Program-made: the position numbers and the translations under genes
Shown here: in pieces, positions 3,154 to 41,564 of the stretch
Layout of the letters: every line of letters begins with the position of its first letter
Position numbering within the stretch: position 1 is the stretch's first letter
DNA from: an uncultured bacterium
GTDB taxonomy: Bacteria > Cyanobacteriota > Vampirovibrionia > Gastranaerophilales > Gastranaerophilaceae
Direction of reading: 5' to 3'
Length of the DNA stretch: 64,000 nucleotides
Assembly: GCA_949282215.1 (NCBI GenBank)
Contig: CASDPF010000011.1
Span: 1-64,000, forward strand
The notes under the pieces: generated by a model
What the model saw: only the letters and a program-made list of their open reading frames with translations
Told to the model about the DNA's origin: nothing
Databases searched by the model: none

Positions 3154-3885
3154 ATGAAAAACAATTTAAAAATGATAAGAAAAATACATTTAAATAGCAA
3201 AGGCTTCACATTAGCAGAAGTTTTGATAACACTAGGAATTATAGGAATCATAGCAGCAATGACTTTGCCTACATTAGTTAACAAGTATCAAGAACGAATT
3301 ACTGTAACAAAAGTGAAGAAATTTTATTCTTTAATGAATCAAGTACTTCAACATGCAATCACTGATAATGGAAGCATTGATCAATGGTCATATATAAAAG
3401 AAGGAGCCAATGCTCCTGATGTTAGTTCACTTGGTAAATCAAGCTCAGCTTTTGCAAGTAAATTTAAACCATATTTAAAAATATCTAAAGATTGTGGAGA
3501 TAATACTGGATGCATAGCAAAGCAATTTTATTACCTCAACGGGAATAGATATAATGTTGACTATGATGGAAGTAAAAGATATTATAAAATGATACTTACA
3601 GATGGTCTTACACTATGGATTAGAGACAACTACAATCCAAGCTTACCAAATCAAACTGAATGTGAATTAACCGACGCAGGTGTAAATAATATTTGTGGAG
3701 TATTATGGCTTGACACAAACGGTAAAAACCCTCCAAACAAGTTTGGTGTAGATGTTTTTTGCTTTTACATAATGAAAAACAGAATATTACCTCACGCACT
3801 GGATGACTGCAAAAGTTCCCAAAATGGATGGGGTTGCTCAACCTATATACTACAAAAAGGTGATATGAAATATTACTACAAATAA
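3154..3885 (+). CDS. Prepilin-like (type II secretion/type IV pilus pseudopilin family) protein
   Basis: The 243-residue protein has a 17-residue basic leader ending SKG, then the type IV prepilin segment FTLAEVLITLGIIGIIAAMT with Glu at +5. It should be cut after Gly and N-methylated by a prepilin peptidase, leaving a hydrophobic assembly helix. The globular part contains CGDNTGC and CGVLWLDTNGKNPPNKFG, a version of the DxNG-PN-G-D motif shared by most pseudopilins here, then WGCSTYILQ. It lacks the DYPW terminus seen in four relatives. GGAGGA precedes the chosen ATG. No pilus ATPase, platform protein or peptidase is nearby. It is divergent from the AbrB-like/dtd pair. Confidence 0.88.
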   Translation: MKNNLKMIRKIHLNSKGFTLAEVLITLGIIGIIAAMTLPTLVNKYQERITVTKVKKFYSLMNQVLQHAITDNGSIDQWSYIKEGANAPDVSSLGKSSSAFASKFKPYLKISKDCGDNTGCIAKQFYYLNGNRYNVDYDGSKRYYKMILTDGLTLWIRDNYNPSLPNQTECELTDAGVNNICGVLWLDTNGKNPPNKFGVDVFCFYIMKNRILPHALDDCKSSQNGWGCSTYILQKGDMKYYYK

Positions 3886-13941: not shown

Positions 13942-14670
13942 TTACCACGGATAATCATCGGGCATATCCCATCCGTTACACATTATGTATGCAAGACAAG
14001 CACCCCTGCCATGGTCTTTTGTACAAGTCAAATTTGCTTGAAAACCGTTTTTATAATATGAGCAAGGCTTATCTTTATTGTATCCGTAAGGTAAAAACTT
14101 ATTTTTATCACCGCCGCCCTGTCTTCCGCCTAATTCAATAATAAAAGCATCCTTCCCTAAAAAATTCGGCCCCTTAATACCGTTTACATCATACAAAATC
14201 CTAACTCGGCTTTTTGTATATCCACTAAGAGTGCCAACCTGTATACTGACAATAGCTGAATTATTGAGCACTAAGGTTGTTCCATAATTACTTTGCGGTT
14301 TAAAAGATGTAAAATCTGAACCTGTATAGTCATAACTGCCTATTTTATGGCTGCAAGCAGGAGTATTCGTCTCTTTTTTACAATATTCCACAACCTTTAA
14401 ATTAGGTATAAGATATTTTTCTGCAAAAAACATACTTTTTTCTAAATTACTGCCGGTATCAAGAAACTCCCAATTATCAATATCCGTTCCATAATTCACT
14501 TTTGCATTTTCCAAAGCATTATTCAGCAAATTATATACAACTTTGGCCTGAGTAAGAAAAACTTTCTTCTGCTGTTTTTGCATAAGAACAGGTAAAGTCA
14601 TTGCTGCAACCACACCGATAATACCCAAAGTAATAAGAACTTCCGCTAATGTGAATGCTTTATTATTCAT
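13942..14670 (-). CDS. Prepilin-like protein, DYPW-terminus type, divergent from an XRE gene
   Basis: The 242-residue protein has leader MNNKA, then FTLAEVLITLGIIGVVAAMT, with Ala at the cleavage position. The globular part carries CKKETNTPAC, ILYDVNGIKGPNFLGKDAF and a Cys-rich end finishing GWDMPDDYPW. It is closest in layout to 10311 and 40596. GGAGGA lies before the ATG. The start is 97 bp from the divergent XRE gene at 14768; its own promoter overlaps two of three repeated operator-like sequences. It is single-gene, without assembly genes nearby. Confidence 0.88.
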   Translation of the reverse strand: MNNKAFTLAEVLITLGIIGVVAAMTLPVLMQKQQKKVFLTQAKVVYNLLNNALENAKVNYGTDIDNWEFLDTGSNLEKSMFFAEKYLIPNLKVVEYCKKETNTPACSHKIGSYDYTGSDFTSFKPQSNYGTTLVLNNSAIVSIQVGTLSGYTKSRVRILYDVNGIKGPNFLGKDAFIIELGGRQGGGDKNKFLPYGYNKDKPCSYYKNGFQANLTCTKDHGRGACLAYIMCNGWDMPDDYPW

Positions 14671-18253: not shown

Positions 18254-20620
18254 ATGGATATTGTATCGAATAGCTTAAAATCATTAGAATTTGACAAAGT
18301 ATTAGAAAAATTAGCAGGCTTTGCTAAAATTAAGCAAAGCAGAAAATTGTGTCTTGAATTACTACCCTTTGAAAATAACGAAAAAATAGAATCAGAAATT
18401 TTATTTACAAGAGAAGCAAAACAAATTTTAGACATCCCAAACGATATTCCTATAGGATTTGTTGCCGAGGTTTCCGAAATTCAAAAAAATACACTCGTAA
18501 GTTACCTTACAGAAAGTGAACTTGTAGATATTGCAAAAACTATGCGGTCTTCAAGACTTGTAAAAAATTTCCTTAATGATAATTGCGAACAAAACTCCAA
18601 GCTATTCGGACTCGCAATGAATCTTATTTCATTTAAAGAACTTGAGGATAGGATTTTTGATACATTTGATGACGACTTACAGATAAAAAAGGATGCGACA
18701 CCGGAATTAAAAGGATTATTTGTATCATTAAGAGATACTGAAAAGAATTTAAAATCAAAAGTTACCGATCTTTTAAATTCCGCAGATTTTACAAAACACT
18801 TACAAGAAACGATTTACACAACACGCGATGATAGAATTGTTTTTCAGGTAAAAGCTCCAAGTAAAAACAAAGTAAAAGGGATTGTACATGACGTATCTGC
18901 CACAAACAAAACTTTTTATATTGAACCTGAATACATTGTGCCTTTAAACAACAAAATAAGAGAAATTCAATCTCAAATACACGCTGAATATGTAAGGATT
19001 TTAGCGGAACTTACTCATTTAGTAAAACAAGAGTTAAAATCAATAAAACACAGTGAAGATATATTGGCAAAAATTGATTTTCATTTTGCGAAAGCTCGTT
19101 ATGCGGTTAAAATTCAAGCTGTAGAACCTGAAATTACCAAAGAGCAAATCATTGAATTTGAAAACATGAAACACCCGCTATTAATCGGGACTGTTGAAAA
19201 CATCGTCACTAACAATTTTGAAATAGGCAAAGATTATAAATCAATAATAATAACAGGTTCAAATACAGGCGGGAAAACAGTCACAATAAAAACTATCGGT
19301 CTTCTTATTCTTATGGCAAAAGCGGGAATGTTTCTGCCTTGCACAATGGCAAAAGTTTACCCGTTTAAACAGATATTTGCAGATATAGGTGACGCTCAAA
19401 GTATTCAACAAAGTCTTTCGACTTTCTCATCTCATATGACAAATATTATTGAAATAATAAATAAAAGTGATGAAAACACATTTGTAATTCTTGATGAAAT
19501 CTGTGCAGGTACAGACCCTCAAGAAGGAGCAGTCCTCGCAAAAGTAATTTTAGAAAATCTTGCTCAACAAAGAACTTACTCAACTGTCACAACACACTAT
19601 GGAGAACTAAAAGCTTTGGAATATTCAAATTCATATTTCAAAAATGCTTCAGTAGAATTCGATACTCAATCGCTCAGGCCAACATATAAACTTTTGATAG
19701 GAATTCCAGGACTAAGTAACGCAATATCAATTTCCGCAAACTTAGGTCTAAGTTCTGAAATCGTAAATAAAGCAAAAGAAATTCTCACCTCAGAAAAAGA
19801 TCAATCAATAATTGTTGTAGAAAAACTGCAAGAAACGCAACAGAAATTGTCGGAAAACCTAAAAGAAGCAGAAGAACTTAAAGAAGATTCTGAACTTATA
19901 AAAAAAGAATATGAAGAAAATCTTTCAGAAGTAAAAAAAGATAAGAAAAAAGTAATAAAAAATATTAAAGAAAAATTCAGCCACGAAATGCTTGCCGTAA
20001 AAGCCGAGATTAAAGATATTCTGGAGGAATTACGCAAAGAAAAATCCGAAAAAATCGCTCGCCGCTCTTATGCAAGACTAGCGAAACTAGAACAAGGTTT
20101 CCATGAAAAAGTAGGGAAATATGAAGAAAAAGAACAATACGCGGAAATTAACTGGAATGAATTAAAGATTAATGACAAATTAATTCTCAAAGAAATTCAT
20201 CAACCGGTAACAGTTTTATCTTTACCTGATAAAAACGGAAACATCTTTGTTCAGATGGGGAATATCAAAACTAAAATAAAGAAAAACAAACTTGCACCTT
20301 ATGACAAATCGTTCGAAAAAAAATCATCAGGTTATACTCCATCAAACTTTACTTCTTTTGAACTAAAACGTACAAACCTGTCAAACAGACTGGATTTAAG
20401 AGGTTACAGAGTAGAAGATGCACTTGATGATTTGGAAATTTATCTTGACCAAGCAAGTTTGGCTAATCTATCTCCTGTCACTGTCATTCACGGTCATGGC
20501 ACCGGTGCTTTAAAAAGTGCAATAAGGGATTTTCTTTCAACTTCTCCTTATGTCGCAAAATTCAGACCTGGCGAAGATAGTGAGGGTGGAGACGGCGTTA
20601 GTATTATAGATATAAACTAA
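18254..20620 (+). CDS. mutS2: Endonuclease MutS2
   Basis: MutS2 is a MutS-like ATPase with a C-terminal Smr nuclease domain. It acts on branched DNA and suppresses recombination, or rescues collided ribosomes in some Firmicutes. The 788 residues show core/lever domains, Walker A TGSNTGGKTVT (about 334-344), Walker B FVILDEICAGTDP (about 411-423), a long coiled coil (about 520-620) and the Smr domain LDLRGYRVEDALDDLE with HGHGTGALK (about 714-760). It has no mismatch-recognition domain, as expected. The ATG is just past the hairpin element, with AGGAT close to it. Confidence 0.95.
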   Translation: MDIVSNSLKSLEFDKVLEKLAGFAKIKQSRKLCLELLPFENNEKIESEILFTREAKQILDIPNDIPIGFVAEVSEIQKNTLVSYLTESELVDIAKTMRSSRLVKNFLNDNCEQNSKLFGLAMNLISFKELEDRIFDTFDDDLQIKKDATPELKGLFVSLRDTEKNLKSKVTDLLNSADFTKHLQETIYTTRDDRIVFQVKAPSKNKVKGIVHDVSATNKTFYIEPEYIVPLNNKIREIQSQIHAEYVRILAELTHLVKQELKSIKHSEDILAKIDFHFAKARYAVKIQAVEPEITKEQIIEFENMKHPLLIGTVENIVTNNFEIGKDYKSIIITGSNTGGKTVTIKTIGLLILMAKAGMFLPCTMAKVYPFKQIFADIGDAQSIQQSLSTFSSHMTNIIEIINKSDENTFVILDEICAGTDPQEGAVLAKVILENLAQQRTYSTVTTHYGELKALEYSNSYFKNASVEFDTQSLRPTYKLLIGIPGLSNAISISANLGLSSEIVNKAKEILTSEKDQSIIVVEKLQETQQKLSENLKEAEELKEDSELIKKEYEENLSEVKKDKKKVIKNIKEKFSHEMLAVKAEIKDILEELRKEKSEKIARRSYARLAKLEQGFHEKVGKYEEKEQYAEINWNELKINDKLILKEIHQPVTVLSLPDKNGNIFVQMGNIKTKIKKNKLAPYDKSFEKKSSGYTPSNFTSFELKRTNLSNRLDLRGYRVEDALDDLEIYLDQASLANLSPVTVIHGHGTGALKSAIRDFLSTSPYVAKFRPGEDSEGGDGVSIIDIN

Positions 20621-20663
20621 AAATTTTTATAATTATACAGAACACAATAAAAAGGAGGATTAC

Positions 20664-20744
20664 ATGAAAAATTTCAAAAAACAAAAAACTCAAAACACTT
20701 GCTGTGACTTAGCTTTCAATGAGGGGGGGGGGGCTTTCCGTTGA
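20664..20744 (+). other. Upstream start and leader ORF of the Stealth gene, out of frame at 11 G
   Basis: An AAAAGGAGGATTAC ribosome site precedes ATG at 20664. Translation reads MKNFKKQKTQNTCCDLAFNE, enters the G tract and stops at TGA 20742-20744. Removing one G (10 G) joins this start directly to the Stealth reading frame; adding two has the same effect. This is the layout of a phase-variable gene whose recorded state is off for the strong start. Confidence 0.75.
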
Positions 20745-21693
20745 TATAGTTTACTTGTGGGTAGATGGAAGTGATCCCGAAATTATAAAAAAGCGAAATT
20801 ATTGGAAAGAAAAATACGGAAAAGAAATTAATACACAAGCACTTGACCCTTGTAGATTTATTGATAATAATGAGTTGAAATACTCTCTGCGTTCTTTAGA
20901 AAAGTATGCACCTTGGATAAACAATATCTTTATAGTTACTGACAACCAAATTCCTAAATGGCTTAATACAAATCACAAAAAAATACATATTGTCGATCAT
21001 ACAGAAATTATGCCCGAAGATGCACTCCCAACTTTTAATGCATCTGCAATAGAAACTTGTATTCATAAAATTCAAAATCTATCGGAATATTTTCTATTTG
21101 CAAACGATGACATGTTTTTTACTAAATTAACACAACCTGATTTTTTCTATAAAAATAATAAACCAATATTCAGAGCAAGACACAAACTAAAACTTCCATC
21201 TGAGCATTTATATACAAACATGCTTGTTAATGCCTATACTTTAATCGAGAAACAATTTAAACAAAAATTTTACTATGACCCACACCATTCTATTGATGCC
21301 TACTTAAAATCAGATATTATCAAATGTAATGAATTATTTAAAGAGGAATTACTAAAGACTACATATAGTAAATTCAGAGAATCTGATAATATATCAAGGG
21401 TCATTTACTCAGCCTACTCCTGCTGTATTGGACACGGAGAATTAAAATTAATAAGAAAAATTGACGACAAACTTCCAATTATAAAAAAACTCTTAAAAAT
21501 TTTAAAACAGGATTACCACAAAGATTCAATATATTTTCACACCTGTAACCACAACTACAAAGAAAAAATAATAAAATATAAACCTGAACTTATTTGTATC
21601 AACGACAATGAAGACACAACAGATGATGACAGAATAAGAATGCAAAAATTTTTAGATGAATATTTTCCGAAAAAATCTTCCTACGAAATATAA
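20719..21693 (+). CDS. Stealth-family sugar-phosphate transferase (phase-variable)
   Basis: Stealth proteins transfer sugar-1-phosphates to build capsule or exopolysaccharide. The protein has the CR1 motif VDIVYLWVDGSDPE, the CR2 block RFIDNNELKYSLRSLEKYAPW, then NIFIVTDNQIPKWLN, LPTFNASAIE and YFLFANDDMFF, followed by a CR3-like HHSIDAYLKSD...TYSKFRESDNI region. It has about 318 residues without the leader. In the recorded sequence the open frame can start only at ATG 20719, which lacks a ribosome site and leads straight into the G tract (Met-Arg-Gly-Gly-Gly). The better start at 20664 is one base out of frame. No other polysaccharide genes are adjacent. Confidence 0.85.
   Translation: MRGGGLSVDIVYLWVDGSDPEIIKKRNYWKEKYGKEINTQALDPCRFIDNNELKYSLRSLEKYAPWINNIFIVTDNQIPKWLNTNHKKIHIVDHTEIMPEDALPTFNASAIETCIHKIQNLSEYFLFANDDMFFTKLTQPDFFYKNNKPIFRARHKLKLPSEHLYTNMLVNAYTLIEKQFKQKFYYDPHHSIDAYLKSDIIKCNELFKEELLKTTYSKFRESDNISRVIYSAYSCCIGHGELKLIRKIDDKLPIIKKLLKILKQDYHKDSIYFHTCNHNYKEKIIKYKPELICINDNEDTTDDDRIRMQKFLDEYFPKKSSYEI
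20723..20733. repeat. 11-G homopolymer in the Stealth gene start region
   Basis: Eleven consecutive G residues in an AT-rich genome, 20 codons after the strong ATG at 20664. Slippage would switch between start 20664 in frame (10 or 13 G), the weak start 20719 in frame (8, 11 or 14 G) and neither (9 or 12 G). Confidence 0.9.
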
Positions 21694-27942: not shown

Positions 27943-28708
27943 ATGGGAAACGAAGAAATAGCTTTAAAAACAATTAGGGGGGGGGGGCGTAACCCTTTAT
28001 AATCGCAGGTTTTCAGGATTTACCCTTGCTGAGGTATTAATAACTCTTAGTATTATTGGAATAGTTGCGGCAATGACTCTGCCTGCTGTGATTAATAAAA
28101 CACAAGAAAAACAATTTAAAACTGCATTCAAAAAACAATATTCGGTTTTCGCTCAAGCCATGCAAAGAGTATATATTGAAGATGGAGAAACTTATGAACA
28201 GGTAGAATGGATACAAATGCCGATATATTTTTGCAAACTTCTTGCACAACAGAAAGTCATGAAATCCGGTGTTAAATGTGAAGAAGTATTAGCAGGAGGC
28301 TATAAAAATAATTTAGAATGGCCTACAACCGGTAAAAAGTATTGGCATAAAGAAGGAAAATGGTATGATAAAAAAGGCAACCCGCAAGGATTAAATGGTG
28401 GATATGAAGCTTTATCATACATTCTACCAGATGGAGCATTAGTAAATTATAACTGCTCAAGACAAATTTTTATTGATGTAAACGGATACAAAAAACCAAA
28501 TACTATAGGTAAAGATATATTCTTTTTGTTAGTCGAATCAAAACATATGGTTCCTACAATTATGTCAACAACCACCAGTTATGTAAGACCTAACGGCTGT
28601 TCAATAGGCGGGACAAATGCTACACCAATTTTAACTAAAGATAACATTGAAGAAGATTGCAAATCAGGTTCAGGCTGGGGTTGTTCTTTATTATATTTAC
28701 TGGAATAA
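27943..28708 (+). CDS. Phase-variable prepilin-like protein, out of frame at 11 G
   Basis: AAAGGAGGTACT precedes ATG at 27943. The frame reads MGNEEIALKTIR, then the G tract, then RNPL and TAA at 28000. With one G fewer the frame becomes IRGGGVTLYNRRFSG|FTLAEVLITLSIIGIVAAMT, a complete prepilin signal cut after Gly, and runs to 28708. The downstream frame has a TAA at 27965 and no other usable start before the signal, so in the recorded state the gene is off. The first later ATG (28073) falls inside the hydrophobic helix. The globular part has IFIDVNGYKKPNTIGKDIF and ends GWGCSLLYLLE, like the pseudopilin at 3154. Confidence 0.85.
27977..27987. repeat. 11-G homopolymer in the pseudopilin leader
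   Basis: Eleven G residues, eleven codons after the start at 27943. The in-frame state is 10 or 13 G, the same numerical rule as at the Stealth locus. Confidence 0.9.
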
Positions 28709-40595: not shown

Positions 40596-41318
40596 TTACC
40601 AAGGATAATCATCCTTAATCTCCCAGCTATCATAATATATTAGTGCAGTACAAGCTAAATTATCATAAGCTTTACCAGATGGATTTGGAGAACAAAGCTC
40701 AAGTAATTTATCTCTTGACAAGCCATAATTTGCCGGAATTAACTTCATTGAATTTACAGAATCTAAAGAAAACATGAAAAAATCACGCCCCAACTGGTTA
40801 GGTTTTGTTTTACCATTAACATCAACAAAGATAACAGGGAATGAATAAATTTGAAAATCCCCATTATAGCCTATAAATAAAGTAACACCATTCACTAACT
40901 CAATGATATAAGATACCCTATTACTATTTGACCAATAAACTTGTCCGGACTTTGTGGTATATCCACTGTAACCAAGCTCATTTATATTAAATGTTCCCGG
41001 ATTTCCTGAATATTTTAAATACGGTTTTATATATTTTTCTGCGAAATTTTCTACCATACTTGTACCTTTATCTGGATTATCAGGATCAATAGAAGTATGA
41101 TAATTATCATTTACATCCCAGTTTTTCATATCACCATAGTCTACCTGTGCCATATTTATTGCCTGATATAACTGACTGTATGTTTGTTTTAATCTTGTTG
41201 CTATCACTTTCTTTTGATGTTTTTGGATTAAAGTCGGTAATGTCATCGCTGCAACTATTCCGATTATTCCTAATGTGATTAGCACTTCTGCCAATGTAAA
41301 AGCATTTTTCTTTTTCAT
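40596..41318 (-). CDS. Prepilin-like protein, DYPW-terminus type
   Basis: The 240-residue protein has leader MKKKNA, then FTLAEVLITLGIIGIVAAMT; Ala is the -1 residue. It carries VIFVDVNGKTKPNQLGRDFF and the C-terminal SWEIKDDYPW. GGAGGACTAA precedes the ATG. Unlike the other DYPW members it has no XRE gene divergent to it; dapA is the divergent neighbour, and a C11 tract (G11 when read on this strand) lies about 154 bp upstream. It ends 31 bases before the LptC-like gene start on the same strand, so readthrough into the envelope operon is possible. Confidence 0.87.
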   Translation of the reverse strand: MKKKNAFTLAEVLITLGIIGIVAAMTLPTLIQKHQKKVIATRLKQTYSQLYQAINMAQVDYGDMKNWDVNDNYHTSIDPDNPDKGTSMVENFAEKYIKPYLKYSGNPGTFNINELGYSGYTTKSGQVYWSNSNRVSYIIELVNGVTLFIGYNGDFQIYSFPVIFVDVNGKTKPNQLGRDFFMFSLDSVNSMKLIPANYGLSRDKLLELCSPNPSGKAYDNLACTALIYYDSWEIKDDYPW

Positions 41319-41444
41319 TTAGTCCTCCGTTTGTTTAATATTTTTTATTAACTGTTTTAAAAATTTTGCACGACAATTCCCCGTGTCTTTTGGCACGGTT
41401 TCCTATTCTGCATACTTTCTTTCGAACGGAGGTATAAGTCTGAA

Positions 41445-41564
41445 ATGCTTACTATTACTTGTAAGCAGGTGCCCCCCCCCCCGAAATTCTATCTATTTGC
41501 GATCAATTTCCGCAACTTCAATGTTCTTAATATAAATCGTTCCTACATTATGTTTGAGGTATAA
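41445..41564 (+). other. Possible 39-codon leader ORF spanning an 11-C tract
   Basis: GGAGGT (41429-41434) lies 11 bases before ATG 41445. The frame reads MLTITCKQV, four Pro codons from the tract, then KFYLFAINFRNFNVLNI and ends FEV at TAA 41562, just before dapA. Changing the C count gives different short ends. A hairpin GCTTAC/GTAAGC (41447-41466) overlaps the start. Whether it is translated is unknown; I list it because of the tract and ribosome site. Confidence 0.3.
41472..41482. repeat. 11-C homopolymer between pseudopilin and dapA
   Basis: Eleven C residues (G11 on the minus strand), exactly the same length as the two coding G tracts. It sits 127 bp before the dapA ATG and 154 bp before the divergent pseudopilin ATG, so any effect would be on transcription, leader folding or the short ORF. 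Confidence 0.9.

Follow-up and report, generated by a model that had tools for sequence, protein, structure and literature searches.

A candidate contingency tract of guanines in a Stealth gene and the related tracts at type IV prepilin genes of a Gastranaerophilaceae bacterium

Main finding

The run of 11 guanines (G11) near the 5' end of a Stealth gene is probably a contingency tract that changes its length by replication slippage, and one of about 89 tracts in the same genome, most of which would switch type IV prepilin genes by means of two designs, named here class A and class B, and would mostly be OFF. The gene lies in the window, i.e. the whole stretch of 64,000 nucleotides that was analyzed, which belongs to a genome of 2.19 Mb in 45 contigs; the nearest relatives that bear a name are metagenome-assembled gut genomes of Ca. 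Gastranaerophilales. A previous reading of the window, made from the sequence only, had focused on the Stealth gene; the tract that it described is real, but its scope was understated, Stealth being an unusual passenger of a system composed mostly of prepilins. This wider prepilin tract system is more interesting than the Stealth tract alone.

The Stealth tract, its start site and its reading frames

The tract, the strong ribosome site, the ATG at 20664 and the spacing of about 20 codons between this ATG and the tract were all found again as originally described (Table 1). Scripted translation, performed with the tract length (n) varied, gave from ATG 20664 a Stealth ORF of 342 and 343 aa at n = 10 and 13, respectively, whereas the five other lengths (n = 8, 9, 11, 12 and 14) yielded a short product of 25-28 aa, in agreement with the proposal that Stealth is joined to this start only at 10 or 13 G. 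Because the leader and the Stealth frame join only at these two lengths, the assembled gene (n = 11) is OFF. As in a contingency locus, a change of a single G in the tract can flip the predicted product between the long ORF and the short peptide.

According to its domain matches, the gene that follows the tract is a member of the Stealth (sugar-phosphate transferase) family, as had been claimed. The scores of CR1, CR2 and CR4 (36.2, 143.3 and 30.3 bits) all exceed the Pfam cut-offs (27.2, 39.4 and 27.4, respectively), and the CR2 match has an E-value of 3.8e-42; in this default Pfam search with the whole protein, no CR3 match was listed at E ≤ 0.001. The predicted RNA structure of the Stealth leader was no better than that of shuffled sequences (z = 0.06).

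Table 1. Features of the Stealth locus and of the two other tract loci in the window. SD, Shine-Dalgarno sequence.
Feature	Coordinates	Strand	Remarks
mutS2	18254..20620	+	3' end also precedes Stealth in related loci
SD of the Stealth leader, AAGGAGG	20652..20658	+	Basis: sequence
Stealth leader, start and ~20 codons, MKNFKKQKTQNTCCDLAFNE	20664..20722	+	Basis: L103 without a frame-breaking indel at the same position; in-frame fusion in L299 and L104
Second ATG	20719..20721	+	Lacks a ribosome site; n = 11 puts it in frame; probably incidental and not conserved
Stealth G11 tract	20723..20733	+	Joined at n = 10 or 13, OFF at 11
Stealth protein body (CR1, CR2, CR4)	20734..21693	+	
Second tract locus	27943..28708	+	SD-ATG (27943), 11-codon leader, G11 at 27977-27987; the prepilin frame begins at 27989 and is OFF at 11, being joined to the start at n = 10 or 13; PF07963
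Prepilin served by the third tract	40596..41318	-	Own SD and ATG
Third tract, class A leader element	41428..41482	-	G11 at 41482-41472, anti-SD CCTCC at 41432-41428

Stealth orthologues in related genomes

The 3'-terminal sequence of mutS2 precedes the Stealth gene in the related loci L102-L105 and L299-L301. Since it is found upstream of the tract-bearing Stealth genes as well as of the nearest tract-free ones, the orthologous locus could be identified. The Stealth genes of L300 and L301 are tract-free and have an ordinary start. That of L103, which is 85% identical, and that of L102 both carry G11 and are OFF, with the frame open at 10 or 13. The leader in L299 (genome G012) is identical to that of L102, but is followed by G12 and one extra T, giving a continuous ORF of 346 aa; this difference in tract length (G11 versus G12) is a comparison across species. 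A continuous ORF of 346 aa is also present in L104, where the tract is interrupted, GGGGGGTGGGGG, and the gene is in frame ("locked ON"). As the leader and Stealth form one ORF in both L299 and L104, the upstream ATG is likely to be the start, as first suggested, the tract is coding, and this ATG and the leader are part of the gene.

Distribution of the tracts in the window, the genome and the family

Three runs of at least 11 G or C are present in the window (the third is read as C11 on the forward strand), whereas a first-order model predicts about 0.001 (0.0003 for G and 0.0005 for C runs), in line with the rarity estimated beforehand; the next longest G/C run has 7 bases. The two tracts outside Stealth had gone unmentioned in the sequence-only reading. 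The whole genome contains 89 runs of at least 9 G, of which 70 are exactly G11. The homopolymers are thus far longer than expected by chance. Nearly all of these tracts are located at type IV prepilin genes, and nearly all are predicted from the assembled sequence to be OFF. Both tract-served prepilins of the window show the prepilin methylation motif (PF07963) above the cut-off, and the prepilin signal was also recognized as TIGR02532.

As counted in 59 relatives, genomes of the family contain between 0 and 116 tracts, and those outside it between 0 and 6. Prepilin signals (PF07963) number at least 150 in the genome under study, 111 in G003 and 84 in G033, and only 4-9 in the tract-poor genomes G008, G017 and G034. 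In 36 genomes of the family the tract count follows the prepilin count (Spearman 0.85, with prepilins counted among the matches listed, up to 115). Tracts are nevertheless not obligatory beside many prepilins, as G039, from another family of the order, has 88 prepilin matches and no G tract. Two prepilin genes of the window (3155-3264 and 14596-14670) have ordinary starts and are tract-free; the tracts are therefore an addition that only some of the prepilin genes carry.

The Stealth product and the prepilins are predicted, by homology, to make or decorate the cell surface. Tracts were also observed at other genes. In contig C5 of the same genome (L051:6330-8132) there are two tandem glycosyltransferase-like (GT-D-like) genes, with a GT-D match just below the Pfam cut-off; the gene of 269 aa is truncated at an intragenic G9 relative to its tandem paralogue, and one more G would restore its frame. 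O-acetyltransferase-like genes in G004 (L261) and G009 (L274) and a kinase-like gene in G033 (L202) carry tracts too. Surface glycans are thus a minority target.

Class B: tracts inside the prepilin frame

In class B, an SD, an ATG, 8-20 codons, the tract and the prepilin are arranged in a single frame, which is also the design of the Stealth gene and of the second tract locus of the window. The prepilin frame was open from the tract to the FTLAE motif in all of the 65 class B loci of relatives for which match texts were available (24 genomes). At the assembled length it was joined to the start in 7 of these loci, while 39 require one G fewer and 19 one G more; these counts partly comprise paralogues and are descriptive, with no probability attached, and the bias towards OFF does not represent 65 independent observations, because paralogues share their frame by descent. 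In G033, where the usual length is G10, 32 prepilin loci require one more G, while another 6 have G11 and are joined to their start. The usual tract length is thus an OFF length in several lineages, with differing offsets.

Class A: leader ORFs upstream of a predicted masked prepilin start

Class A is represented by 61 copies in the genome under study and by 35 in its sister species G003. A short leader ORF (typically MQKxxIDRIS) is followed by G11 and by the sequence CCTCC, mostly exactly 39 nt past the tract, and the prepilin has its own SD and ATG about 145 nt beyond the tract. The distance from the leader ATG to the tract is 29 nt in 87 copies, and the upstream SD and ATG are largely conserved, i.e. 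the leader ORF has a ribosome site of its own, as is expected of an attenuator. At the assembled length the leader reaches a stop codon by position +20, ahead of CCTCC, in nearly all copies; with one more G it usually reads past CCTCC, and a few divergent copies do so with one G fewer. The leader also runs past CCTCC in three copies of G003 at G12 (L287, L295 and L296) and, at the assembled length, in a deletion variant of the genome under study (L097). One copy of the latter genome has an interrupted tract, GGGGGAGGGGG. It should be mentioned that the copy at the third tract of the window has lost a clear leader SD and ATG, and that a second leader type (MKSSIIASKLR in L221 of G012, MKNEIIALKLL in L296 of G003), with CCTCC at +25, follows the logic of class A.

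In minimum free energy folds of the segment between the tract and the start of the prepilin, the prepilin SD pairs with CCTCC as an anti-SD in 82 of 89 cases, which, as the copies are alike, are not 89 independent tests. The unpaired probability of the SD was 0.02, and it rose to 0.45 when the anti-SD segment was shuffled and to 0.56 when a ribosome was modelled over it. RNAalifold yielded the same helix, so that masking of the prepilin start is predicted, and CCTCC is among the best-conserved stretches 3' of the tract. When SD and anti-SD partners were swapped between copies, own partners performed no better than swapped ones, and the pair counts did not exceed those of shuffled sequences, with too few changes present. 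The helix thus rests on conservation and energetics, no locus-specific covariation having been seen. No codon-position bias was detected in the leader past the tract (0.60/0.69/0.62), and the constraint on this stretch is therefore one on the RNA and not on a peptide. A terminator-attenuator reading of the hairpin was also considered and is disfavoured, because the stop codon of many open-frame leaders, at +64, is reached after the anti-SD but ahead of the hairpin.

We consider the odds to be about even that class A, a leader of roughly 150 nt with about 61 copies here and about 35 in the sister species, is a form of tract-gated translational coupling, in which a slipping G11 sets the frame of the leader, the leader ribosome unmasks the prepilin SD in one frame only, and a large repertoire is OFF by default.

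Proposed mechanism and tract mutability

For the Stealth gene, translation would start at 20664. At n = 10 or 13 the leader would be fused to Stealth and the protein made, and at other lengths translation would terminate after 25-28 codons. Replication slippage in the tract would change n between cells. Class B prepilins, whose leader, tract and coding sequence share a frame, would be switched in the same manner; in class A, the leader frame set by the tract would decide whether a ribosome crosses the anti-SD that is predicted to mask the prepilin start. A single cell would express few of these loci, because the tract length typical of a lineage leaves the majority of them OFF. The expression of the tract genes and their role at the surface are likewise presumptive. 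We regard an ON/OFF switch of Stealth as likely, with slippage in living cells deduced from sequence comparisons.

Near-identical paralogues differ in tract length in G007 (G10 versus G12, with one difference per 100 flanking nt) and in G033 (G10 versus G12, with three flanking differences). In paralogue pairs with at most six differences, n differed in 4 of 16 and was equal in 12. The lengths in the genome under study are strikingly uniform (70 of 89), with less spread than very fast switches predict. The tracts cannot be attributed to a loss of mismatch repair, as mutS1 and mutL are present; both MutS1 and MutL are unbroken, and slippage may therefore be slow or moderate.

Alternative explanations

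An unlikely alternative is that the tract length is fixed and that slippage of the polymerase or the ribosome provides a small, constant amount of protein from each out-of-frame gene. Such programmed slippage would be compatible with the uniform lengths and with an offset from the open frame that is constant throughout a lineage; however, the direction of this offset varies (-1 in the genus under study, +1 in G033 and in genus g7), it differs between class A and class B within one genome, some loci, although a minority, are clearly joined in frame, and L104 is locked in frame by its interruption.

The sequence-only reading had proposed three states of Stealth, with strong, weak and no expression at 10, 11 and 12 G, the weak one due to the second ATG at 20719. 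This ATG indeed lacks a ribosome site and, as translation confirmed, its frame is open at n = 8, 11 and 14, thus including the assembled length; it is also found in L103. The corresponding position is ACG in L102, L299 and L104, however, and class B prepilins, which have the same tract design, need no such ATG. Its absence from three of the five tract-bearing orthologues makes a two-state switch the better fit and weak expression at 11 G improbable. What stands of the phase switch is thus a likely ON/OFF alternation, ON at n = 10 or 13, the third state being unsupported.

It is highly improbable that the tract acts as RNA, either by binding a small RNA rich in C, as in the RepG/tlpB pair, or as a G-quadruplex, as is known for gonococcal pilE. 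The tracts do occur in mRNA leaders, and RepG acts on repeats of 9-12 G (PMC8295292). On the other hand, some prepilins of G033 (L198, L206 and L209) have C10 or C11 on the coding strand at the position of the G tracts, which counts against a G-specific role; moreover, the open frame in 65 of 65 class B loci would be left unexplained, and no Rfam match to the class A element was obtained at the one locus searched.

Assembly miscounts or decaying pseudogenes are very improbable explanations: although the relatives are metagenome-assembled and the contig of one of them (L101) ends within the Stealth G tract, as if the assembly broke there, a single miscount of G11 cannot correct both class A (open at 12) and class B (open at 10) in one genome, the frames are open over about 240-320 codons, and the prepilins are amplified rather than decaying.

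Significance and comparison with known systems

Type IV pilus genes have been described in a Gastranaerophilus genome from the termite gut (PMC5877343). A literature search found no paper that links phase variation with Gastranaerophilales, which is not proof of novelty, and the single paper found for Melainabacteria is a flagellin survey. If slippage is real, few genomes would carry more homopolymer switches than this one, in which they are mostly OFF and directed at pili and surface sugars, in a lineage of abundant, little-cultured gut bacteria that are non-photosynthetic relatives of cyanobacteria; surface bet-hedging of a commensal could then be checked directly in existing metagenome reads. 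The class A leader, if correctly understood, would be a new way in which a repeat tract outside a gene switches that gene.

In translational attenuators such as the ermC leaders, a ribosome on the leader ORF unmasks a downstream ribosome site. The leader ribosome of class A would do the same, but the gate would be a mutable tract instead of a drug or a metabolite. The poly-G/C contingency loci of Campylobacter, Neisseria and Helicobacter comprise surface-glycan genes that are turned ON and OFF by the frame of a homopolymer in the 5' coding region. The tracts described here resemble them in this position, in the ON/OFF frame and in the surface functions, and differ in that prepilins dominate, the canonical length is OFF, and mutS and mutL are kept. 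A set of contingency loci has been compiled in silico for N. meningitidis (PMC5084427). In H. pylori, the small RNA RepG binds the G-repeat of tlpB, with a graded effect (PMC8295292); there, too, a surface gene is controlled by a G-repeat located upstream of it in the mRNA leader, although through binding of a small RNA, whereas here the feature that varies is probably the frame of a leader ORF. The closest likeness is to Bifidobacterium breve, also a gut commensal, where G10/G11 in the first gene of a sortase-pilus locus joins two ORFs; at least one of its loci is OFF at the annotated length and turns ON after slippage in vivo (PMC9187656). B. breve has two such loci per genome, and both encode sortase pili (PMC9187656), whereas the present genome has about 89 tracts, which would serve a Stealth gene and, above all, type IV prepilins.
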